NCBI GenBank assembly: GCA_021785335.1
Contig: JAJYFW010000006.1
Coordinates: forward strand, 1-13,782
Reading direction: 5' to 3'
DNA: 13,782 nucleotides
Source of the DNA: Pseudomonadota bacterium
Lineage (GTDB): Bacteria > Pseudomonadota > Alphaproteobacteria > Acetobacterales > Acetobacteraceae
Part shown: positions 4,409 to 13,782 of the stretch, piece by piece
Layout: each line of letters begins with the position of its first letter
Numbering within the stretch: position 1 is the stretch's first letter
Notes under the pieces: generated by a model
The model's database searches: none
The model's input: only the letters and a program-made list of their open reading frames with translations
Told to the model about the DNA's origin: nothing
Made by a program: the position numbers and the translations under genes

Positions 4409-4484
4409 GTCCCGTTCGTCTAGAGGCCCAGGACACCGCCCTCTCACGGCGGTAACAGGGGTTCGAATCCCCTACGGGACGCCA
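4409..4484 (+). tRNA. tRNA-Glu (anticodon CTC)
   Basis: A full cloverleaf is visible: a perfect 7-bp acceptor stem GTCCCGT/ACGGGAC, a D arm containing the TCTAGAGGCCCAGGA segment, a 5-bp anticodon stem CCGCC/GGCGG around the 7-base loop CTCTCAC (anticodon CTC at 4443-4445, reading GAG), a T arm AGGGG-TTCGAAT-CCCCT, discriminator G and encoded CCA. Length is 76 bases. A weak promoter guess is TTGATC at 4361 with TAGGAG 17 bases on. A short T run follows at 4487-4491. The 3' end faces the accessory cluster, so it is a possible integration site, but no second copy of the 3' end was seen in the window. Confidence 0.97.
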
Positions 4485-4556: not shown

Positions 4557-5873
4557 TTATACGGTGCCGTACCGGACCTCCCTGGTGCTCGCGAGCGGAC
4601 GGCGCACCGAGGCCGGATCGATCCCGCTCCTGAGCGCTGAAAGCACGCCGACCGCCTCCCAGTAATTGTCGACCGCATGGAACTGCCCGGGGTGCCAGGG
4701 CAGTGCCGCCAGGTCGTTGCGCATGATGTTGTTGTTTTCGCGGACCGCGATGACCGGGATTCCCTGTTCCAGCGCGGCCAGCGTTGGCAGGCCGACGCAG
4801 CCGTCGGGAATCACCAGGCACGAGATGTCGGAGGCGGTAAGCAGCCCGGGGCGCGGAGTGCCGCCCTCAACCACCCGCGGCGCGCGCTGCAAGCCTCTCA
4901 GCACGCACATGAAGTAGGTGGCGGATATGACCTCCGCGGCCATCCTCGGGTCCACCTGGCCGAGCTCGAGGTTGGCGATCTCCGCGGAAGGGGGCATGGG
5001 CGAGTGCGCGGCGGGGATGCCATAGGTCGAGGAGAGGAAATGGGTCAGCATCGCCTCGACGCCGCCCCACGGATTGATCATTTCTCCGCGCGCCGTGTAG
5101 TAGTCGACATGATAGCTGGCGGGGGTATCGACCTGGGTCGATAGGGCAACGGCGTCGTATTGGCCCTGATATCGTTGCAGGACATCAACAAGACCATCGA
5201 GACGGTCTACAAGACCCACGGCGCGTCCCGATGGCGCATACTCGCTCTTCAGACTGGCCGGCGGGTTGAGCCGGATGACGGCCGGGCAGTTCAACCCGTA
5301 GGATGCTCGCGCCGCGCTCACCGCGTTGATCGCCGCGTCGCTGAACATTGCGTGCGGGTGCTCGTCGATGATCGTCAGGACGCGGTTCGAGCGCACCGGC
5401 TGAAGTGCGATCGTGCCCAGCATCAGGCGGCTGATCACACTGCCCTCGACGTAAAGTCCGTTTTCGGGCAGGTCATTGATGTCCGCTCCGTTGACCACGT
5501 TCGGGTGCGTGATCAGCGTATCGCAGGCGGAAGCCATCAGGCGGGCAACCGGGCTCGCGTCGCCCGCATGCCCGCCGATCGTGCAGCCGATACCCGTGGG
5601 GACCAGGAGGACGGTGTTGAACGAGGATGTGTTCTCGCAGGTTCGCCGCTCGAACGCGAAGATCGATGGCATCCTGAGACGCGCGGCTTCGGACAGGCCT
5701 GAAACCACGCCGAGTTCGCACTCATAGGATTCCGCCGTGCGAGTGACCGCCAGCCGTATCGGCACCAACTCGCTCCCCACATGCCGCGTGATCGCCTGGC
5801 GAAGATGGGCTAGGAGCCCCGCGTGATTGGCAACGAGCGGGACATTGAGCTGTTCCTCACGGATTTTCAGCAT
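4557..5873 (-). CDS. DUF3326-family protein, uncharacterised
   Basis: This 438-residue protein matches what I remember of the DUF3326 family, known mainly from cyanobacteria and other bacteria with no assigned function. Signature stretches are VLLVPTGIGCTIGGHAGDAS (88-107), DTLITHPNVVNGADIN (118-133), NPWGGVEAML (267-276), and a C-terminal VIPDGCVGLPTLAALEQG followed by AVRENNN (about 354-382), which looks like a nucleotide/sugar-binding Rossmann-type segment. No signal peptide or membrane helix is seen, so it is probably cytoplasmic. The start is the ATG of MLKIREEQLN, with GGAG 6 bases upstream; a GTG 30 bases earlier has no clear ribosome-binding site. It overlaps the end of the decarboxylase gene by 17 bases, indicating an operon and probable translational coupling. 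It is last in the leftward unit, 72 bases from the tRNA. Function unknown; context suggests an enzyme or handling factor for the same small molecule. Confidence 0.85.
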   Translation of the reverse strand: MLKIREEQLNVPLVANHAGLLAHLRQAITRHVGSELVPIRLAVTRTAESYECELGVVSGLSEAARLRMPSIFAFERRTCENTSSFNTVLLVPTGIGCTIGGHAGDASPVARLMASACDTLITHPNVVNGADINDLPENGLYVEGSVISRLMLGTIALQPVRSNRVLTIIDEHPHAMFSDAAINAVSAARASYGLNCPAVIRLNPPASLKSEYAPSGRAVGLVDRLDGLVDVLQRYQGQYDAVALSTQVDTPASYHVDYYTARGEMINPWGGVEAMLTHFLSSTYGIPAAHSPMPPSAEIANLELGQVDPRMAAEVISATYFMCVLRGLQRAPRVVEGGTPRPGLLTASDISCLVIPDGCVGLPTLAALEQGIPVIAVRENNNIMRNDLAALPWHPGQFHAVDNYWEAVGVLSALRSGIDPASVRRPLASTREVRYGTV

Positions 5874-7044
5874 CGCTTGCTCCACAAAGCACGGCAAAGT
5901 CACCGTATGTGAATCGTTTTACGAGGCGGATCTCGCCTGTCCCGTCGATTTCGTAGATGTCGGGGAGGTTGATGCCGTTGAACATGTTCGCCTTCACCAT
6001 CGAATAGGCGCCCATGTCGGGAAAAATAAGGCGATCACCCGTGCGAAGCGGCTCGGCGAATGCGTACTCGCCGAGAATGTCGCCCGCGAGGCAGGCAGGT
6101 CCGGCGAGCAGGTAGACATATTCGCCTTCCTGCGTGTCGCCCAGGACGTAGGGCTCGAACTGGTATTCGAAGACTTCCGGCATGTGGGTGATGCCCGTAT
6201 CCAGCACCGCAATCTGCCTGCCTCCGCTGTCGAAGAGGTCGAGGACAGAGGCGACGAAGCTGCCGGCGCGCCGTGCGATCCCGGCGCCGGGTTCGATGAA
6301 CACCTTGCGCGGTCCGCGCGCCCGGATCGCCGCCACGGCCTCGGCCAGCGCCTCCGGATGCGCGGGGTCGGCAAACAGGTAGCCGCCGCCGAGATTGACC
6401 CATTCGATCCGCGGCCAGAGCGCGCTGAAGCTTCCGAGCAGCGCCTCGACGGTGGTTCGCAGCGGGGCGAGATCCTCGCTGTCGCAGTTGGTGTGGAAAT
6501 GAAGGCCGGTGATTCCGTTGAGGGCATCGGCCGAGGTTCCGAGCAGACTCTCGAGTTGCGGAACCGGGACGCCGAGCTTGGAATGTCGCCGGCAGGGATC
6601 GTAGCGAGGGTCGGCGACGAAGGAGAGGGCGGGATTGATCCTCAGGCCGCACTTCGCCCTGGCGGCGGCGAGGCCGGCGCCGCGTTGCCATTGCGAAAGC
6701 GAGTTGAAGCTGATGTAGTCGGCGATGTCGAAGAGCGTACCGAGCTCGCGAGGCAGGAGTCCCGGCGTCGTGACATGCACGGTTTGCGTTGCCGCCAGCA
6801 CATGCCGGGCGAGACGCGCCTCGAACAGCGAACTGGCGGCGAACCCATCGACAGCCTCGGCGATGATGCGCAGGCCGTTGAGAATCGAGAACGACTTCAG
6901 GGCGAAGAGCGGCGTCGCGCCGGCGGTCTCGGCTGCCTGCTGCACGGTGAGCGCATCCGCCCGGAGCGTGGCGGTGTCGATCACGAAGGCGGGTGTCCGC
7001 AGCGTGGGCTCGTGAAGCAGGCGGGTGGCGATCTCGGGTCTCAT
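5857..7044 (-). CDS. Fold-III PLP decarboxylase, carboxynorspermidine decarboxylase (NspC)-like
   Basis: This 395-residue protein matches the NspC branch of alanine-racemase-fold PLP decarboxylases, which release CO2 from carboxynorspermidine or carboxyspermidine. Lys50 in FALKSF is the expected PLP Schiff-base lysine. Other landmarks in order are FNSLSQW (113-119), CGLRINP (132-138), YDPCRRHSKLG (148-158), GLHFHTNCDSED (180-191), WVNLGGGY (215-222), EPGAG (251-255), DTGITHMPEV (282-291), AGPACLAGDILG (314-325) and the C-terminal MGAYSMVKANMFNGINLPD with its conserved Tyr. Length is normal. The start is the ATG at 7044 with GGAGAGG upstream; it overlaps the MFS stop as ATGA, so the two are coupled. 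No carboxynorspermidine dehydrogenase is present, so the substrate may differ from the classical polyamine precursor. The family is secure, the substrate inferred. Confidence 0.88.
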   Translation of the reverse strand: MRPEIATRLLHEPTLRTPAFVIDTATLRADALTVQQAAETAGATPLFALKSFSILNGLRIIAEAVDGFAASSLFEARLARHVLAATQTVHVTTPGLLPRELGTLFDIADYISFNSLSQWQRGAGLAAARAKCGLRINPALSFVADPRYDPCRRHSKLGVPVPQLESLLGTSADALNGITGLHFHTNCDSEDLAPLRTTVEALLGSFSALWPRIEWVNLGGGYLFADPAHPEALAEAVAAIRARGPRKVFIEPGAGIARRAGSFVASVLDLFDSGGRQIAVLDTGITHMPEVFEYQFEPYVLGDTQEGEYVYLLAGPACLAGDILGEYAFAEPLRTGDRLIFPDMGAYSMVKANMFNGINLPDIYEIDGTGEIRLVKRFTYGDFAVLCGASDAENP

Positions 7045-8444
7045 GGTGCCTCTCCGTACATGCTGCGCCCCGCCCCGGCGTCGCGAGGACGGGATGTCTG
7101 GCGATGCGCCTTCGCGAGAAGGAAAGGCAGTGTCGCCAATCCCGAATAGGCAAACAGCACGATGGCGAGATCCGGAACCGACACTCCGAGCGCCGTCATC
7201 GGCGCGGCGGGAATGTTGACCTTTTCGCCGGAGAAGGCCGAGACGATGTCGGGGATCGCCTCGTGCAACGCCTTGCTGTGCTCGCCGAGCAGAACCGTCA
7301 GCATGCCGATGCCGAGAAGCTCGACGATTCCGCCGAGGTGATGAACTGTCGATGTGACCGTCGCGCGCTTCTCGGATTCGATAAGGTCCTGGAGATGGGC
7401 GTTTGCGACGGGGTCCCAAACATGGTCAGCAAAGTCGAGCGTAACGTAGAGGCCCACCACCACTGGCAGGGTTGGCAGAAAGAACAGGATGGAGACGAGC
7501 GCTGCTGGCACGATCAGAAAGACCGACAGGACCCAGGTTGCACCGATCCGCCGGAGGAGCAGCATGCCGGCCAGCGGCGCGGTGACGCCGACCAGGTTGT
7601 TGAGGATGCCGAGCGGCGCGAAGGCAGTGGCGTTCATTCCCTTGGTGATGAGCGACATGTCGAACGCGTCGTCGGCCGCCGCTTCCGGGAAGGAGGCGAT
7701 CAACATCGCGATGGCCAGCAGCAGCAAGGGCTTGCTTCTCAGAATGACCTTGAAGCCGGCAAGCAGGTCCTGCAGGGAAAGGCCGCTCGCGGTTCCGTCC
7801 GTATCCGGATTGGGCGCCGACCGTTGCTCCGGAATCGAGATGGCGATCGCTGCCCCCAGCAGGATGCCCACGGCGGTGATGATCCAGAGCAGGTTGAGAA
7901 CCGCCCGGTCGACCTCCACGGTGAGAAGCAACAGCAGGGCGAGCAAGCCCGCGCCCGCCGCACCGAGGGACTGGAACGAACTGATCCGCGCGAAATAGTT
8001 GTCCGCCATATCCCGCCGCCCGATGTGACGCAGGTTGTCGACGACCCAGGCGTCCTGGGCTCCGTATGTGAAAGCCTGGCCAAGCCCCCAGACGGCGAAG
8101 CACGATGACACCGCGACGAGCTGGATGCGGCCCTGTTCGGAGACGGCAAGTGGAACGACGGTGAGCGCGGCCGCACTCACCAGCATACCCAGAATGACCG
8201 AGAGCTTCCGTCCCCATCGATCGGCAAAGGCGCCGGTCGGGATGTTCATCACCAGCAACGTGCCGGATTGCAGCAGGAGTGGGAAAACGGCCCATTCCGG
8301 CCGCTCCATCACCATGAACAGGTAGGCGAACTGAAACGGCCAGCTGAGATTGAACAGCGCGGCGAGGCCTGAGGCCAGGTAAAAGCGCCCGAGCGCGTCG
8401 CGTTCCGGGCGGGTCGGCCAGAATCGCTTCAGGAGTCTGATCAT
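7041..8444 (-). CDS. MFS-family transporter
   Basis: This 467-residue inner-membrane protein has about 12 hydrophobic helices. The MFS loop 2-3 motif is intact at residues 71-80 (GAFADRWGRK). A polar stretch at about 200-225 (IPEQRSAPNPDTDG) is the usual cytoplasmic loop between the two six-helix halves. Acidic residues within helices of the second half (EAAADDAFD) suggest cation coupling. Length and features fit either a drug/metabolite exporter or a solute importer; the exporter role is inferred from its place at the head of a biosynthetic-looking operon. The ATG at 8444 lacks a convincing Shine-Dalgarno sequence. The gene is separated by 529 bases from the divergent rightward unit, and its stop overlaps the decarboxylase start. 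Confidence 0.88.
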   Translation of the reverse strand: MIRLLKRFWPTRPERDALGRFYLASGLAALFNLSWPFQFAYLFMVMERPEWAVFPLLLQSGTLLVMNIPTGAFADRWGRKLSVILGMLVSAAALTVVPLAVSEQGRIQLVAVSSCFAVWGLGQAFTYGAQDAWVVDNLRHIGRRDMADNYFARISSFQSLGAAGAGLLALLLLLTVEVDRAVLNLLWIITAVGILLGAAIAISIPEQRSAPNPDTDGTASGLSLQDLLAGFKVILRSKPLLLLAIAMLIASFPEAAADDAFDMSLITKGMNATAFAPLGILNNLVGVTAPLAGMLLLRRIGATWVLSVFLIVPAALVSILFFLPTLPVVVGLYVTLDFADHVWDPVANAHLQDLIESEKRATVTSTVHHLGGIVELLGIGMLTVLLGEHSKALHEAIPDIVSAFSGEKVNIPAAPMTALGVSVPDLAIVLFAYSGLATLPFLLAKAHRQTSRPRDAGAGRSMYGEAP

Positions 8445-8584
8445 CCGCCGGTCGCCGGGGTCGTGCGCGGCGGAGTTGGCCCCGTTTCACGTGTTGCGCT
8501 CCATGGCATCACGCCCCAGCCACCTTCCGCGAACAGGCATCAGCAAGCCTGGTTTCCAGATAATCGCTGCGGGAGTACGGGACA

Positions 8585-8598
8585 TTGATCCATATCAA
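8585..8598. promoter_or_regulatory. Perfect FNR/FixK-type binding site
   Basis: TTGATCCATATCAA is an exact TTGAT-N4-ATCAA, the consensus for FNR, Anr and FixK proteins, which act under low oxygen. Its centre is 147 bases upstream of the MFS ATG and 383 bases upstream of the PqqD-like GTG. A minus-strand GATTAT about 26-31 bases downstream of the centre sits near where a -10 would be for an activator bound around -40, so the leftward unit is the likelier target. The match is seen; the regulation is inferred. Confidence 0.65.
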
Positions 8599-8778
8599 GA
8601 TTCCGTTGCCCGGAACTTGCTGATTGCGTGGGAGAACGATGCGCGCCGGTTGATCCTGCCGGTCCCGTCCCGGCGCCGCTCGGACCGGCGGTTCGGAAAG
8701 CCAGGTCTCTGGCCGGACCGAGTGGGCAGCGACGAGCAGCAGGCCCGCGGGCGCGTGTTCGACGACCGACGCCGCGAG

Positions 8779-8832
8779 CACGGAAGGCCTGTGGAAAGAC
8801 CACGGAAGGCCTGTGGAAAGACCTGTGGAATA
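8779..8832. repeat. Two exact 22-base tandem repeats plus partial third copy
   Basis: The unit starting CACGGAAGGCCTGTGGAAAG occupies 8779-8800 and again 8801-8822 without a mismatch. A third CCTGTGGAA core follows at 8822-8830. The core therefore recurs at 22- and 12-base spacing, roughly two and one helical turns. This could be a set of protein-binding sites upstream of the rightward unit, or a recent slippage duplication. Confidence 0.85.
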
Positions 8833-8926
8833 CAGGAAAACTAGACCAACCTGTTGCGTTGGATTCACCACTCGCGCTGCATCGAAAATCCGCACGCAGC
8901 GCGTTGATGATATAGGTCAATGATCC

Positions 8927-8960
8927 TTTGCCTGTTTTGTGGCAAATGATTTCGGCCGAA
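8927..8960 (+). promoter_or_regulatory. Paired inverted repeats in the leader of the PqqD-like gene
   Basis: TTTGCC-N8-GGCAAA (8927-8946) is an exact inverted repeat that can form a 6-bp hairpin. Four bases on comes the 10-base palindrome TTCGGCCGAA (8951-8960), immediately followed by the ribosome-binding site AGGAGAG. A TATAGG at 8911-8916 could be the -10 of a promoter, but no good -35 was found. The arrangement suggests control at the promoter or ribosome-binding site. Confidence 0.4.
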
Positions 8961-8973
8961 AGGAGAGACCGCG

Positions 8974-9279
8974 GTGGGCAGAACCGATGGATCGAAGTTG
9001 CGGGCCCTGGGCGACGCCGCGGGAGGCAGCAACAAGGCATCGGCGCTGCGCTTCTACGGCGATCGGTTTGTGTTCGACACGGAATCCGGCCGGTTCTACC
9101 GGGTCACCCCGACCGCGAGTTTCATGTTGCGGGCGCTCGAGCGCGGCGTTGGTCCGGACAGGCTCGCGGACCTTCTTGAATCCGAATACCACATCGACCG
9201 GGCCACCGCGGCGCGGGATGCAAGCAGGTTCGTAAAAGATATGCAACGGATCGAGCCGTTCAACGAGCTGGCAGCCTAG
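8974..9279 (+). CDS. PqqD-family small protein
   Basis: This 101-residue protein fits the PqqD fold, a winged-helix-like domain that binds leader peptides (RiPP recognition element) and, in PQQ synthesis, hands the PqqA peptide to the radical SAM enzyme PqqE. The match runs from about residue 25: RFVFDTESGRFYRVTPTASF (beta hairpin with the aromatic/Thr pattern), MLRALERGVGPDRLADLL (helix), then YHIDRATAARDASRFVKDM. The first ~22 residues are polar and Gly-rich. The GTG start is supported by AGGAGAG about 7 bases upstream. It is the first gene of the rightward unit, 19 bases before the ATP-grasp ligase. No PqqA-like peptide, PqqE, HprK-like kinase or other usual partner is in the window, so a role in PQQ synthesis is unlikely. 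It may be a carrier or substrate-docking subunit for the ligase. Confidence 0.72.
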   Translation: MGRTDGSKLRALGDAAGGSNKASALRFYGDRFVFDTESGRFYRVTPTASFMLRALERGVGPDRLADLLESEYHIDRATAARDASRFVKDMQRIEPFNELAA

Positions 9280-9298
9280 AGAGCCCCGGGTATTTCCC

Positions 9299-10384
9299 AT
9301 GACGACGGTCGCGCTCACCGGCATGCACCGAGGCGAGAACCCCCAGCCGGGCGCCGCGGTCGGCGTGAGCCTGCGTCGCCAGCACCCTGATCTGCGCATC
9401 GTCGGACTCTGCTACGACCCGCTGGAGAGCGCACTGTTCAGCCGCGACGCCAGCCGGCCCGATGCGGCCTTTCTCCTTCCCTATCCGGGTGCCGGTCCCG
9501 ATGCGTTGCTTGAACGCCTGGACGAGATCCTGAAATACGAGCGGATCGACTGCCTGATCCCCTGCCTCGACTCCGAGTTGGACAACCTGATCGTCCTCGC
9601 GCCGGAACTCGCCAAACGATCGATCGCCTGCCTTCTGCCGAGCAAGGAATCGCTTGACGCGCGCAACAAGGTGAACCTGCCGGAATTCTGCCGTGGGCTC
9701 GGCATCCAGACGCCGCGCACGTTTTGCGCCAGCGACGCGGAGACACTCGCGGTACAGGCCGAGGCGCTGGGTTATCCGGTGTATGTGAAGGGACGCCTTT
9801 ACGCGGCGCACCGGGCGCGTTCACGGCCGGAGCTCGTGGAAGCCTACACCCATATCGCGGCGGATTGGGGCGGCCCGGTCCTGGTTCAGGAGCCGCTCTA
9901 TGGCGAGGAATACGACGTCGTCGGGCTTGGCGATGGGCAGGGCCGGATCGTTGGGTCCTGCAGCATTCGCAAGCTGCTGCGGACGTCCGCCGGGAAGGGC
10001 TTCGCTGGGGTCGTGGTCGCCGACCCGAAGCTCGACGCGCTGGCGCAGCGCGTCATCGCCCGCCTGCGCTGGAACGGGCCGTTCGAACTGGAGTTCGTCA
10101 AATCTCCGGGCCACCCGCATGCCCTGTTCGAAATGAACCCGCGCTTTCCCGCGTGGGTCGATTTTCCCTCGCAGATCTCGTGCAACCTGCCCGCCCGGCT
10201 TTTGCGCAGCCTGCTCGGCGCGGGGCCCGTGCCGCTCGCGGTCTGCGCGCCGGGCCGGATGTTCATTCGTCACAGCACCGACCTGGTCGCCGATATCGCG
10301 GAGGTGGCGGAACTCGTCACCACCGGCGCGCGCGGCGTCAAGACGGCCCCCGCAGCGACCAGCGTCGCGCGGACCGGGGACTGA
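9299..10384 (+). CDS. ATP-grasp family ligase (carboxylate-amine ligase-like)
   Basis: This 361-residue enzyme has the carbamoyl-phosphate-synthetase/PylC-like ATP-grasp layout: a Rossmann-like pre-ATP-grasp domain (about 1-115, with CLIPCLDSELDNL), then the ATP-binding domain. Visible residues are Lys164 in VYVKGR, QEPLYGEEYDVVGLGDG (197-213), the loop around RTSAGKGFAG (228-237), Glu265 in FELEFV, and Glu278/Asn280 in FEMNPRFPAW, the expected Mg-ATP ligands. Such enzymes activate a carboxylate as acyl phosphate and join it to an amine or thiol; the substrates cannot be read here. The ATG at 9299 has no clear Shine-Dalgarno sequence but begins the family-typical VALTG strand; expression may depend on coupling to the PqqD-like gene 19 bases upstream. 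It is followed after 26 bases by the decarboxylase gene. Confidence 0.85.
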   Translation: MTTVALTGMHRGENPQPGAAVGVSLRRQHPDLRIVGLCYDPLESALFSRDASRPDAAFLLPYPGAGPDALLERLDEILKYERIDCLIPCLDSELDNLIVLAPELAKRSIACLLPSKESLDARNKVNLPEFCRGLGIQTPRTFCASDAETLAVQAEALGYPVYVKGRLYAAHRARSRPELVEAYTHIAADWGGPVLVQEPLYGEEYDVVGLGDGQGRIVGSCSIRKLLRTSAGKGFAGVVVADPKLDALAQRVIARLRWNGPFELEFVKSPGHPHALFEMNPRFPAWVDFPSQISCNLPARLLRSLLGAGPVPLAVCAPGRMFIRHSTDLVADIAEVAELVTTGARGVKTAPAATSVARTGD

Positions 10385-10410
10385 CAGGCGGGGAATGAGG
10401 GGATCGAGCG

Positions 10411-11841
10411 ATGAACTTCGGATACACGCAACCGGCGATCAGCGAGGAACTCGGCAGCTCGGGCTCGCGGGCGGCGGCGGAGCGCAATGTCTATGCGTTT
10501 GGCTCACGCGGGCGCTCCCTCGGCGAGATCGACGGGGTCTCCGTCCCGGCGCTGCTGGCGGAGTTCGGTTCGCTCCTCTTCGTTTTTTCCGAACGAACCC
10601 TGCGCGGCCACGCGCGCCGGGCCCATGAGGCGTTCGAGAGCCGCTACCCGCGCACCAGCTTTGCCTGGTCCTTCAAGACCAATTACCTGGACGCGATCTG
10701 CCAGGCGTTCCGGCAGGAGGGTTGGATCGCCGAGGTCGTTTCGGATTTCGAATACGAGAAGGCGCGCCGGCTCGGCTTTGCCGGCGACGAGATCGTCTTC
10801 AACGGCCCCTACAAGCCTCGCCCGATCCTGGAACGCGCGGTTGCCGAGGGGGCGCTGGTCCAGATCGACAACTGGGATGAGCTGGCGCTGGTCGAGGAAC
10901 TCGTTTCGGGTTCGGAGAAGCCCGTGTCGGTCGGGCTGCGCGTCTGGCTCGATGCGGGCGTGCAGCCGATATGGTCCAAGTTCGGCTTCGCGCTAGCGAA
11001 CCAGGACGCGGGGCGCGCGGCCGCACGGGTGGTCGCCAACCCGAGGCTTCGGCTGCACACGCTGCACACGCATATCGGCACATACATCCTGGCACCCCAG
11101 GCTTATGGTACCGCGGCGCGCAAGCTGCTGGGGCTGCGCCAGGACATCAGCGACACGCTTGGTCACGTGGTGCCCTGTCTCAACCTCGGTGGCGGCTTTC
11201 CGTCCAACAGCCTGCTGCACGGGATGGCGGGGCCGGCGGAGGCGCAGGTTCCGCCGATCGAGGCCTACGCCGCGGCGATCGCGGATGTGCTGGCCGGCCT
11301 GCCTGCCGCGCAGCAGCCGCTGCTGCGGCTCGAGACCGGCCGCCACCTGATCGACGAGGCAGGCTACCTCCTCACCAGGGTCGTGGCTGTGAAGGGCCCG
11401 CTGGCCCACGCCGGTGCGACCGCTGATCTGGTCGCGCGCGCAAACAAGGAGCGCGCGATCCTGGGCGACGAGCCGGAGGCAAGCTACATCCTGGATGCCG
11501 GGATCAACCTTCTCTACACCGCGGCCTGGTACCGGTATTCGGTCATGCCGGCCCGCGCGTCGGCGGCGCCGGCGGTACCGTCGCGGCTTTACGGGTCGTT
11601 GTGCATGGCGATCGATGTCATCCGCGACCGCGTGGCGCTGCCGCCGATGGAAGTGGGCGACGCCCTGAGCCTCCATCCGGTGGGGGCCTATAACGTCGTT
11701 CAGTCCATGCAGTTCATCCAGTATCGCCCGGCCGTGGTGCTGATCGATCCGGACGGGACGCCGCGGCTGATCCGCGCTCGCGAGCAACTCGAGGACATCG
11801 AGCGTGCCGAGCATCTGCCCGCCCATCTTTCCCCCGCCTAA
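10411..11841 (+). CDS. Fold-III PLP decarboxylase, diaminopimelate decarboxylase (LysA)-like
   Basis: This 476-residue enzyme belongs to the LysA/ornithine decarboxylase fold-III group. Lys89 in WSFKTNY is the expected PLP lysine; LHTHIG (218-223) carries the conserved HxHIG-type element; NLGGGFP (258-264) binds the PLP phosphate; ETGRHLI (308-314) follows. Near the C-terminus, YGSLCMAID (Cys398, Asp402) and VGAYNV (424-429) match the dimer-interface catalytic Cys and Tyr segments. It is longer than a typical ~420-residue LysA, with a polar ~45-residue N-terminal extension and an extended C-terminus. GAGGGG lies 8 bases before the ATG. Position after an ATP-grasp gene makes a special-metabolism role, as with PvsE of vibrioferrin synthesis, more likely than lysine synthesis; that is inference. 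The substrate could be a diamino acid or an N-linked conjugate. Confidence 0.87.
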   Translation: MNFGYTQPAISEELGSSGSRAAAERNVYAFGSRGRSLGEIDGVSVPALLAEFGSLLFVFSERTLRGHARRAHEAFESRYPRTSFAWSFKTNYLDAICQAFRQEGWIAEVVSDFEYEKARRLGFAGDEIVFNGPYKPRPILERAVAEGALVQIDNWDELALVEELVSGSEKPVSVGLRVWLDAGVQPIWSKFGFALANQDAGRAAARVVANPRLRLHTLHTHIGTYILAPQAYGTAARKLLGLRQDISDTLGHVVPCLNLGGGFPSNSLLHGMAGPAEAQVPPIEAYAAAIADVLAGLPAAQQPLLRLETGRHLIDEAGYLLTRVVAVKGPLAHAGATADLVARANKERAILGDEPEASYILDAGINLLYTAAWYRYSVMPARASAAPAVPSRLYGSLCMAIDVIRDRVALPPMEVGDALSLHPVGAYNVVQSMQFIQYRPAVVLIDPDGTPRLIRAREQLEDIERAEHLPAHLSPA

Positions 11842-11854
11842 GCCAGCCAGGCCG

Positions 11855-11895
11855 GCGAGCCCGCGCCGCGGGGACCCGCCCGTGGGCGGGCTCGC
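11855..11895 (+). promoter_or_regulatory. GC-rich nested hairpin spanning the probable start of the UT-M23 gene
   Basis: GCGAGCCCGC (11855-11864) pairs exactly with GCGGGCTCGC (11886-11895). Inside it CCCGCC pairs with GGCGGG around a 4-base loop that contains the proposed GTG start (11882). No T run follows. It may act as a weak terminator after the decarboxylase gene or reduce translation of the fusion gene. Confidence 0.45.
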
Positions 11896-13782
11896 GCGCG
11901 CAACCGCGGCTTCCATCGGGGATCGGTTTCCGACCCCGCTGATCATGATCCTGGGGCCGGCGCTCGGCGGCGCGTTCCTGATCTCCAACCCCTGGATCGG
12001 CGCGCTGCTCTGGCTGGCGATCTTCCAGGATCTGCCGCACGCCGCCTTCGCGCTCCTGGGTATCGGCATCGCCGAGGCGATCGTGCGCGCGGCGCGCGTC
12101 AGCGATGGTTCGCCGGTGGACGGCAGCCTGAAGGCGAACGCGGTGCTGGCGGCGCTCGCGGCGTCCTGGCTTACCGAGTCCGTCGACATGCCGGTGGAAA
12201 TCGGGATCGTGATTGCCGCCATCTCCGCCGCGACGGCGGCGGTGCTCACGGCGGCCATCACGCGGGCGCTGGCGACGACGGGGCTGCCGACGCTCGTGCT
12301 GGGCTACTGCGTGACGGCGATGATGCTGTTCGCGACGTTTCATCACTGGACCGAGACCGCAGTGCTGGCCATCCACTGGCCGCTGGTGCCGGACACGCTT
12401 TCCGGCTGGATCATGACCTTCTTCGAAACCCTCGGCGCGCTGGTGTTCCTGCCCACCGCGCGCGTCGGCATCGTGGTGGCACTCGCCATCCTGCTGTGGT
12501 CGCGTGCCGCGTTCGTCGCCGGCGTCGCCGGTTGGATCGCCGGCGTGCTGGTCTCCCTCGCGCTGGCGCAAATTGGCGTCGTCTACTACTGGATGCCGGC
12601 CGCCTATAACTTCTTTCTCGCCGGCATGGGGCTCGGCGCGATCTTTTTCCTGCCCGGTCCGGCAAGTTTGCTGATCGCGACGCTTGGCGGCGCGAGTGCG
12701 GCGATCATCGCAGTCGCACTGCAGCACCTGTTCCCCGACAGCTCGTTCGGCTACCTGCCGATCGCGTCGCTGCTCACCATCTGGGTCGGCATCTACGCAC
12801 TCGCGCAGGCGAGCGAGCAGACCCTGTTCCAGCGTAACCATGCAATCGAAATGCCGCCCGAGGAGGCATGGTGGCGCGCGGCCTACTGGTTGCAGCGGCT
12901 GGGGCCACCCGGACCCTTCCTGGTCGTGCCGCTCGACGGCCGCGCGCAGGTCTCGCAAGGCTGGGACGGCGAGTTCAGCCATGTCGGACCGTGGCGAAAC
13001 GCGCTCGATTTCCAGCGTCCGGCGCCGACAGCCCACACCACGTCCGAGGAACCCACCACCATCTGGAACGCCGACGTCAGCGCGCCGGCAGCCGGCTTCG
13101 TCGAGCGGATCGAAAGCCGCGTCCCGGACAATCCGCTTGGTGTCGCCAATTACGCCGACAACTGGGGCAACTACGTGATCATCCGCCTCGACCAGGGCGG
13201 CTGGGCGACGCTCGCGCATCTGCGGCAGGGAAGCGTTGCGGTCTCGCTCGGCATGCGCGTGGAGATCGGCACCCGCATCGGTGCCGTCGGCAACTCCGGC
13301 CGTTCGCCGATGCCGCACCTGCACATGCAGGTCCAGGGCGCTCCCTACCTCGGCGCGCCCACCGTGCCGTTCCGGCTGGCCAACTACCTCTCGGCGACCG
13401 ATCCCGGAGAAGCGCCGCGACACTGGAACGCGGCGGGTATCCCGAGCCACGGGGCGATCGTGTCGCATGCCGTCCCGGAGCCTGGCGTCCAGGCGCTGCT
13501 GGCGAGCTTCACGCCGGGTTGCGCCGTCTGGGCGATCGAGAGCAAGGGGCGCCTGCCATCCGTGTTCAGCCGGGCGCGTTTCGCATCCACCGTGCGCGCC
13601 GGTATCTTCCTGACCGAAGCCGGCCGGCACGTGCTCAGGGTGGGCCGCGGCGGCGCGCTGATCGCGGGGCTCGATCCGGACGCCTGGCGCGTGCTCGACC
13701 TGCAGGTCGGCGCCTCGCCGCTCCAGCAGATGCTGGCGCTGGCGGTACCCTCGATCCCTTATGCCGCCAGGCCCGGGCTCAC
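11882..13782 (+). CDS. Urea transporter-like domain fused to M23 (LytM) metallopeptidase domain, 3' end beyond window
   Basis: The frame is open to the right edge, giving at least 633 residues. Residues ~15-315 form a multi-helix membrane domain resembling the urea transporter (UT) family: SNPWIGALLWLAIF (35-48), DGSLKANAVLAALAASWL (80-97), LPTLVLGYCVTAMM (135-148) and, in the second half, YNFFLAGMGLGAIFFLPG (242-259). A linker leads to an M23 peptidase domain: QVSQGWDGEFSHVG with His367, ALDF with Asp376, TLAHL with His446, and PHLHMQV with His479/His481, the usual zinc and catalytic residues. About 150 further residues follow and continue past the edge. The M23 part probably lies in the periplasm, acting on peptidoglycan or peptides. 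The GTG at 11882 is preferred on family grounds; a GTG at 11804 preceded by GAGGA would overlap the decarboxylase gene and add a Pro-rich stretch. It lies 40 bases after that gene, same strand, so is probably in the same unit. Confidence 0.82.
   Translation, partial: MGGLARATAASIGDRFPTPLIMILGPALGGAFLISNPWIGALLWLAIFQDLPHAAFALLGIGIAEAIVRAARVSDGSPVDGSLKANAVLAALAASWLTESVDMPVEIGIVIAAISAATAAVLTAAITRALATTGLPTLVLGYCVTAMMLFATFHHWTETAVLAIHWPLVPDTLSGWIMTFFETLGALVFLPTARVGIVVALAILLWSRAAFVAGVAGWIAGVLVSLALAQIGVVYYWMPAAYNFFLAGMGLGAIFFLPGPASLLIATLGGASAAIIAVALQHLFPDSSFGYLPIASLLTIWVGIYALAQASEQTLFQRNHAIEMPPEEAWWRAAYWLQRLGPPGPFLVVPLDGRAQVSQGWDGEFSHVGPWRNALDFQRPAPTAHTTSEEPTTIWNADVSAPAAGFVERIESRVPDNPLGVANYADNWGNYVIIRLDQGGWATLAHLRQGSVAVSLGMRVEIGTRIGAVGNSGRSPMPHLHMQVQGAPYLGAPTVPFRLANYLSATDPGEAPRHWNAAGIPSHGAIVSHAVPEPGVQALLASFTPGCAVWAIESKGRLPSVFSRARFASTVRAGIFLTEAGRHVLRVGRGGALIAGLDPDAWRVLDLQVGASPLQQMLALAVPSIPYAARPGL

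Follow-up and report, generated by a model that had tools for sequence, protein, structure and literature searches.

Do the seven genes that stand head to head on contig JAJYFW010000006.1 of an Acetobacteraceae genome (GCA_021785335.1) constitute one biosynthetic pathway or two? The window, that is, the entire stretch of 13,782 nucleotides analysed here, encodes a major facilitator superfamily (MFS) transporter, an NspC-like decarboxylase and a DUF3326 protein in the leftward direction, and a PqqD-like protein, an ATP-grasp ligase, a LysA-like decarboxylase and a fusion of a urea transporter (UT) domain with an M23 peptidase in the rightward direction (Table 1). The initial annotation read these genes as a single divergent cluster for an undescribed small-molecule or peptide-modification pathway. 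Its seven gene family assignments were correct, with the Pfam and NCBIfam matches, the order and the strands of all genes in agreement. Comparison across genomes favours two separable, independently inherited modules rather than one pathway. The best explanation of the locus as a whole, to which we assign a probability of about one half, is that two independent biosynthetic modules with the chemistry proposed below are arranged head to head in a stretch that was probably acquired horizontally and that adjoins a tRNA-Glu gene.

The separation was observed in two sets of loci. For the rightward unit, an ATP-grasp profile built from an alignment of 18 relatives was scanned against genome contigs, and the best 80 of at least 393 confirmed ATP-grasp relatives were kept; these loci were chosen by the ATP-grasp protein, many of the contigs are short, flanks of 8 kb on both sides are available for just 39 loci, and the denominators given below for each gene are the loci with the flank needed for that gene. 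For the leftward unit, 25 DUF3326 loci were collected, comprising 15 matches and 10 loci from a presumed cyanobacterial phylum (picked partly for long open frames). At E 1e-3, the 80 rightward loci yielded homologues of neither DUF3326 nor the MFS transporter, and it is the LysA-like gene that gives the best NspC matches there. The rightward genes, in turn, were not found in any of the 25 DUF3326 loci, where the single LysA match (L083) lands on the NspC-like gene of that locus. At the genome level, a search for DUF3326 covered 60 of the rightward genomes (10 plus 50, with 20 of the 80 left out) and was positive in one, Marimonas lutisalis, in which the NspC-like and DUF3326 genes lie on a contig other than that of the rightward unit and no homologue of the window MFS transporter was found.

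A single seven-gene pathway, in which the rightward ligase would couple an acid to an amine supplied by the leftward enzymes, with the divergent promoter region controlling both units, is in keeping with the adjacency and divergence of the units in the window, with the third-codon-position GC content (GC3), which is lower in all seven genes than in the four flanking genes for which it was measured, and with the amine chemistry suggested by both units. Because the units share none of the surveyed loci and DUF3326 was found in one of the 60 rightward genomes searched, we rejected this reading, which appears improbable. The co-occurrence across genomes that the initial annotation proposed to look for was seen among the rightward genes and between NspC-like and DUF3326, and not between the two units. 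Of the two outcomes it named as contrary to its view, one was observed, namely, homologues that are not co-inherited; the other, assignment of the units to separate known pathways, was not, as neither unit matched a known pathway.

The rightward unit is a conserved system, and the recurrence of its gene order is beyond chance because the order is found in loci of many phyla. Judging by their record titles, these loci belong to Pseudomonadota (Stutzerimonas, Rhodobacterales, Rhodoferax, Accumulibacter), Verrucomicrobia, Planctomycetes, Armatimonadetes, Cloacimonadota, Ignavibacteria, Bacteroidetes, Myxococcales, Riflebacteria and other groups. The ATP-grasp gene is immediately preceded by a PqqD-like gene in 73 of the 74 testable loci (these family counts are based on clustering, and 10 of 10 distant members pass the Pfam PqqD cut-off) and immediately followed by a decarboxylase gene in all 72 (71 by a strict gap rule, with an overlap in L057). 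An M23 domain is encoded within 6.5 kb of the ATP-grasp gene in 65 of 65 loci, on the same strand in 64, and the UT domain was detected with the window protein by tblastn in 56 of the 65. In 8 of the 9 UT-negative loci, the frames included in the UT-M23 alignment are fusion-sized, so that a more divergent UT part is likely present there. We found no description of the rightward module in the literature searched, with a mention possible in Iyer et al. 2009 (amidoligases), and the passages of PMC8503589, PMC8939145 and PMC12419801 that were available describe neither module. The claim of an undescribed pathway with a ligase and a decarboxylase stands well for the rightward unit; that all seven genes form one system is unsupported. 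The rightward module is probably a broadly conserved amide-and-decarboxylation pathway that is apparently new to the literature.

Clues to the substrate come from the LysA-like decarboxylase. In searches with its family profile, the N-citrylornithine decarboxylase 7kh2 scored best (E 4.5e-97; 328.7 bits, versus 234.2 bits for the best diaminopimelate decarboxylase, 1twi). The protein falls short of the cut-offs of both the diaminopimelate decarboxylase model TIGR01048 (175.9 bits, cut-off 297.9) and the FslC/FigC model NF041039 (163.3 bits, cut-off 500), though FslC/FigC is the nearest solved structure. As described in part of PMC7857480, the acidic residue beside the catalytic cysteine, which reads the free side-chain amine, is replaced by methionine in FigC (C354-M355), and T327, T330 and Y331 take the place of the specificity-helix aspartate or arginine, so that FigC lacks the residues by which the side chains of free ornithine, arginine or diaminopimelate are recognised; H357, R387 and N389 are the proposed citryl-contact residues. 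In our own profile alignment, C398-M399 of the window protein align with C354-M355, and T370, W373 and Y374 align with T327, T330 and Y331, respectively; the citryl contacts are not kept, their places being taken by I401, Q431 and M433. C398, M399 and W373 are invariant in all 16 LysA-like sequences aligned, and T370 and Y374 are nearly invariant. In a wider alignment, methionine accompanies the catalytic cysteine in 98% of the sequences (70 of 71 rows), the sole exception being the NspC row of the window, which entered this alignment by transitive clustering instead of the window LysA-like protein; the 16-sequence alignment used the correct sequence.

Because the nearest relative is the N-citrylornithine decarboxylase and Cys-Met stands in place of the acidic side-chain-binding residue, the substrate of the LysA-like enzyme is probably an amide-conjugated amino acid that the ATP-grasp enzyme produces. 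We infer that this substrate is an amino acid that is conjugated and blocked at its side chain, without a citryl link, the conjugate being supplied by the adjacent ligase. Plain lysine or norspermidine biosynthesis was rejected given that both decarboxylases of the window are below the equivalog cut-offs. The rhizoferrin siderophore pathway (FigA, a nonribosomal peptide synthetase-independent siderophore (NIS) synthetase, the FigC/FslC decarboxylase and an MFS protein) resembles the rightward unit in that an amide ligase is followed by an alanine-racemase-fold decarboxylase that acts on the conjugate and has the same active-site Cys-Met. It differs in that the rightward ligase is an ATP-grasp enzyme rather than an NIS synthetase, the citryl contacts are not kept, and the partners include PqqD-like and UT-M23 proteins.

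In the two-module explanation, the ATP-grasp ligase would couple a carboxylic acid or an amino acid to an amino acid via an amide, whereupon the LysA-like decarboxylase would remove the free alpha-carboxylate of the conjugate, giving an N-acylated amine, and the PqqD-like subunit would be the substrate-recognition partner of the ligase. The ligase is closest to carbamoyl-phosphate-synthase-like proteins (nearest PDB entry 2pn1, 4.6e-17), has a sub-threshold Pfam match to PF15632 (21.5 bits, cut-off 29.1), scores below the cut-off of the NCBIfam PRK12767-type model (76.3 bits, cut-off 316) and retains the E-x-N-P-R region in the alignment of 18 relatives; its best 120 homologues, itself excluded, are 56-73% identical. 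The PqqD-like protein scores above the PF05402 cut-off (42.6 bits, cut-off 23.4), and its counterparts are 79-128 aa long across loci.

The presence of a PqqD-type recognition domain directly beside the ligase in nearly all loci, together with a peptidase with an intact zinc site, would also fit a pathway for a ribosomally synthesized and post-translationally modified peptide (RiPP), in which the PqqD-like protein would bind a leader peptide, the ATP-grasp enzyme and the decarboxylase would modify the peptide, and the M23 domain would cut off the leader. We consider this unlikely because no precursor emerged from a search of the 900 bases upstream of the PqqD gene and of clustered frames at the loci, a search that allows for a precursor encoded elsewhere. 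No short frame (18-90 aa) recurs widely in the upstream region; the largest group is present in 6 of 74 loci, and the four members of it that were checked sit inside long frames. When frames of at least 45 aa were clustered, we recognised no precursor in the 45 largest clusters, and the seven unassigned clusters checked consist mostly of frames inside core genes, with the exception of cluster 10 (8 of 17 inside).

In the butirosin side-chain set BtrI/BtrJ/BtrK, we take BtrJ to fill the role of the ligase, and we likewise take LysW to be a carrier. A carrier-protein logic of this kind, whereby the ligase would charge the small protein with an amino acid, which the decarboxylase would modify in its bound state and the peptidase would then release, involves the same set of roles as the rightward unit, namely, a small protein, a ligase and an alanine-racemase-fold decarboxylase, and has a precedent in BtrK, which acts on carrier-bound glutamate according to part of PMC7857480. 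Nevertheless, it is hardly probable here: the small protein has a PqqD fold instead of that of an acyl carrier protein, with no acyl-carrier match and PqqD as the sole Pfam match at E 1e-3, and there is no conserved C-terminal residue among 74 of the small proteins, of which the C-terminus only was inspected, so that a LysW-type carrier is unsupported. The rightward unit further differs from the butirosin set in its UT-M23 fusion and its very wide distribution.

In the proposed N-acylated amine pathway, a small product or by-product would cross the membrane through the domain with the urea-transporter fold and would be trimmed or released by the M23 peptidase fused to it. The UT domain exceeds the PF03253 cut-off (75.4 bits, cut-off 25) and scores 36.5 bits against the urea-transporter model TIGR03441 (cut-off 274.6); the AlphaFold2 model of the fusion has a predicted template modelling score (pTM) of 0.75, and Foldseek aligned it with 3me1 at a template modelling score of 0.80 by target length, so the predicted structure indicates that this is a genuine urea-transporter fold. 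The M23 zinc-site residues H393, D402, H472, H505 and H507 are each present in 95% of 61 aligned rows and are kept in all 58 rows that have an M23 domain, the other three (L004, L008, L011) being other frames without M23. The charge pattern suggests that both ends of the UT domain are cytosolic, which would be odd for an M23 peptidase.

Genes beside the rightward unit vary. Downstream genes for tetratricopeptide repeat (TPR) proteins are common (one cluster spans 54 loci, with some unrelated TPR frames among its members; 4 of 5 downstream examples checked pass a TPR cut-off), and the TPR gene of the present locus, if there is one, would lie beyond the end of the window. A family-5 solute-binding protein adjoins the unit in Rhodobacterales loci (the L012, L015, L023, L001 group; by eye, with Pfam for one example), and a dienelactone-hydrolase-like protein does so in Rhodobacterales and Stutzerimonas loci (same group; Pfam for one example). 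In four loci (L042, L061, L070, L079), the gene of an AraC-type regulator starts upstream, at a distance of about 1 kb from the ATP-grasp gene (Pfam for L042 only).

In the leftward unit, the DUF3326 protein matches PF11805 with 311.2 bits (cut-off 25). The decarboxylase aligns over its full length to the solved NspC enzymes 9eaf and 3n29, of which the carboxynorspermidine decarboxylase 9eaf is the nearest PDB entry (4.8e-109), and keeps their fold, length and CLAGD active-site motif; it scores 297.7 bits against the NCBIfam nspC model TIGR01047, below the cut-off of 409.05. Some sources already name relatives of this enzyme carboxynorspermidine decarboxylase. The NspC-like and DUF3326 genes recur as neighbours beyond chance: the 120 top matches of each share 18 apparently common contigs, that of the window included, compared with 0-3 in 12 shifted controls, where a common contig was inferred from matching contig size, which suggests, without proving, identity. 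The ATP-grasp protein, counted in the same way, shares three such contigs with DUF3326 and zero with NspC-like, no more than the controls.

Twelve of the 25 DUF3326 loci contain close relatives (E < 1e-100, 44-56% identity), and the other 13 are at 31-41% identity; at E 1e-4, none of the 25 has a homologue of the window MFS transporter. Only three kinds of decarboxylases were sought among the neighbours, NspC-like, S-adenosylmethionine (AdoMet) and ornithine/lysine/arginine (Orn/Lys/Arg) decarboxylases. One of these adjoins DUF3326 in 10 of the 12 close loci, and no two of the sought kinds occur together: the neighbour is NspC-like in five (L083, L098, L106, L108, L109), an AdoMet decarboxylase in four (L103, L104, L105, L107) and of the Orn/Lys/Arg type in one (L102), and none of the three kinds is found in two (L110, L111). 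In L139, an Orn/Lys/Arg-decarboxylase-like match lies about 3 kb from DUF3326 and is not adjacent. In L083 (Marimonas), the NspC-like and DUF3326 genes lie among genes that look like those for amino acid breakdown, namely, D-amino-acid dehydrogenase-like, racemase-like and enolase-like genes and one for a thiamine pyrophosphate enzyme (by eye, with Pfam for the last only).

We tentatively propose that DUF3326 is an aminopropyl or carboxyaminopropyl transferase, with decarboxylation before or after the transfer, since aminopropyl-type transfer would explain the interchange of AdoMet and NspC-like decarboxylases beside one partner. In relatives with an AdoMet decarboxylase neighbour, the donor would be decarboxylated first, and DUF3326 would use decarboxylated AdoMet; in the alternative order, DUF3326 would move a 3-amino-3-carboxypropyl group from AdoMet, and the NspC-like enzyme would then decarboxylate the product. 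Finally, the MFS protein would export the amine. MccD is presumably the partner of MccE in microcin C. The latter provides a precedent, in that carboxyaminopropyl transfer is followed by decarboxylation by an alanine-racemase-fold enzyme (PMC7857480, in part); the likeness proposed is one of logic, and no peptide-nucleotide is seen here. The AlphaFold2 model of DUF3326 (pTM 0.89), a mixed alpha/beta structure with alternating strands and helices, neither supports nor excludes such transfer: fold searches gave no clear PDB relative and identified no function. Matches of intermediate strength to lumazine synthases and GT-B glycosyltransferases were set aside.

The similarity of the NspC-like protein to solved carboxynorspermidine decarboxylases, with its conserved CLAGD motif, and the alternating strands and helices of the DUF3326 model would also fit a variant of the carboxy(nor)spermidine pathway. 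In this alternative route to spermidine or norspermidine, DUF3326 would stand in for carboxy(nor)spermidine dehydrogenase, reductively condensing aspartate semialdehyde and a diamine, and the NspC-like enzyme would act next. This route is not likely, given that it leaves the AdoMet decarboxylase in the place of NspC in 4 of the 12 close loci unexplained. The window differs from the known pathway in the score below the NspC equivalog cut-off, in the DUF3326 partner and in having no dehydrogenase gene beside the NspC-like gene; the lack of a dehydrogenase among the 50 DUF3326 structural matches listed excludes nothing.

Operons combining PspA, glutathionylspermidine synthetase (GSPS)-like, DUF350 and AdoMet decarboxylase genes were reportedly described by Li et al. 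in 2019. PMC11237479 discusses operons of this type, and relatives of the window DUF3326 sit inside such operons: GSPS-like genes are found in 5 of the 12 close loci, L109 also carries DUF350, DUF1190, DUF2170, DUF2491 and PspA genes, and Pfam searches on one example each confirmed AdoMet_dc, GSP_synth, DUF350, DUF1190, PspA and OKR_DC neighbours. Unlike these operons, the window lacks genes for PspA, GSPS-like and DUF350 proteins, and DUF3326 is absent from the main text of that phage shock protein paper, as far as the available part goes. DUF3326 is mentioned in PMC4284462 and PMC13294368; the literature searched contained no description of the leftward module, with a mention in Li et al. 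2019 possible.

In our partly overlapping taxon samples, for which group assignments were inferred, DUF3326 is present in 2 of 398 Pseudomonadota (the centre genome G009 and one fragment with stops), 10 of 385 Alphaproteobacteria (G009 included), none of 369 Gammaproteobacteria, 5 of 246 Planctomycetota and 56 of 59 genomes of the presumed cyanobacterial phylum (the phylum of an Obscuribacterales assembly). In the 10 DUF3326 loci examined from the latter (among L112-L141), no NspC-like or AdoMet decarboxylase match was found. That both units represent new chemistries, with a cross-phylum ATP-grasp/PqqD route through an amide to an N-acylated amine with a urea-channel/peptidase fusion, and with DUF3326 as a new class of aminopropyl/carboxyaminopropyl transferases pairing interchangeably with unrelated decarboxylase folds, seems rather doubtful.

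The tightness attributed to the two units in the initial annotation was borne out within each, where genes overlap or almost touch (about 4 nt between MFS and NspC-like, about 17-47 nt between NspC-like and DUF3326 depending on the choice of start, and up to 38 nt between LysA-like and UT-M23). It does not extend to the region between them, which is not a short gap and in which a consensus scan of positions 8380-9020 found no sigma-70-type promoter pair; a tandem repeat in this region is possibly regulatory. None of the seven window proteins matches a PADLOC model, so an anti-phage defence reading is unsupported. Plasmid-borne relatives were likewise unmatched at E limits of 1e-50 and 1e-20. 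The left flank consists of ordinary genes (the end of an adenylosuccinate synthetase gene, a LysE-type exporter, a sigma-70-family factor and a pseudouridine synthase) and the tRNA gene.

Table 1. Features of the divergent locus, in window coordinates
Feature	Position	Strand	Evidence and remarks
tRNA-Glu (CTC)	4409..4484	+	ARAGORN; 72 bp from the end of the leftward unit; possible insertion site
DUF3326 protein	4557..5873	-	about 438 aa; longer GTG start at 5903 possible; PF11805 9.8e-93
NspC-like alanine-racemase-fold pyridoxal phosphate decarboxylase	5857..7044 (about)	-	PF00278 1.2e-10; PF02784 1.8e-7
MFS transporter, first gene of the leftward unit	7041..8444	-	PF07690 (MFS_1) 4.5e-17
Divergent intergenic region between the units	8445..8973		about 530 bp; tandem 22-bp repeat at 8776-8819
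PqqD-like protein (RiPP-recognition-element fold)	8974..9279	+	101 aa; PF05402 7.6e-11
ATP-grasp ligase, carbamoyl-phosphate-synthase-like group	9299..10384	+	NCBIfam PRK12767-type 2e-21, below cut-off; PDB 2pn1
LysA-like alanine-racemase-fold decarboxylase	10411..11841	+	PF02784 1.6e-24; nearest N-citrylornithine decarboxylase
UT-M23 fusion (UT membrane domain, LytM/M23 metallopeptidase domain, C-terminal region)	11804..13782, cut by the window end	+	PF03253 5.5e-21; PF01551 3.1e-11

GC3 of the cluster genes is 0.78-0.88, compared with 0.90-0.94 in the four flanking genes measured. This lower GC3 and the proximity of the cluster start to the tRNA-Glu gene are consistent with insertion at that tRNA gene, and the cluster is possibly a genomic island. 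No copy of the tRNA end was found among the 20 largest of 48 repeat families, and the far boundary of the cluster lies beyond the window.

Overall, the conservation of the four-gene set from Stutzerimonas to Verrucomicrobia, Cloacimonadota and Bacteroidetes implies that it likely makes a product useful to many bacteria, and the decarboxylase motif directly predicts the type of substrate. In the case of DUF3326, a family without an assigned function, the decarboxylases encoded beside its relatives make that function testable.

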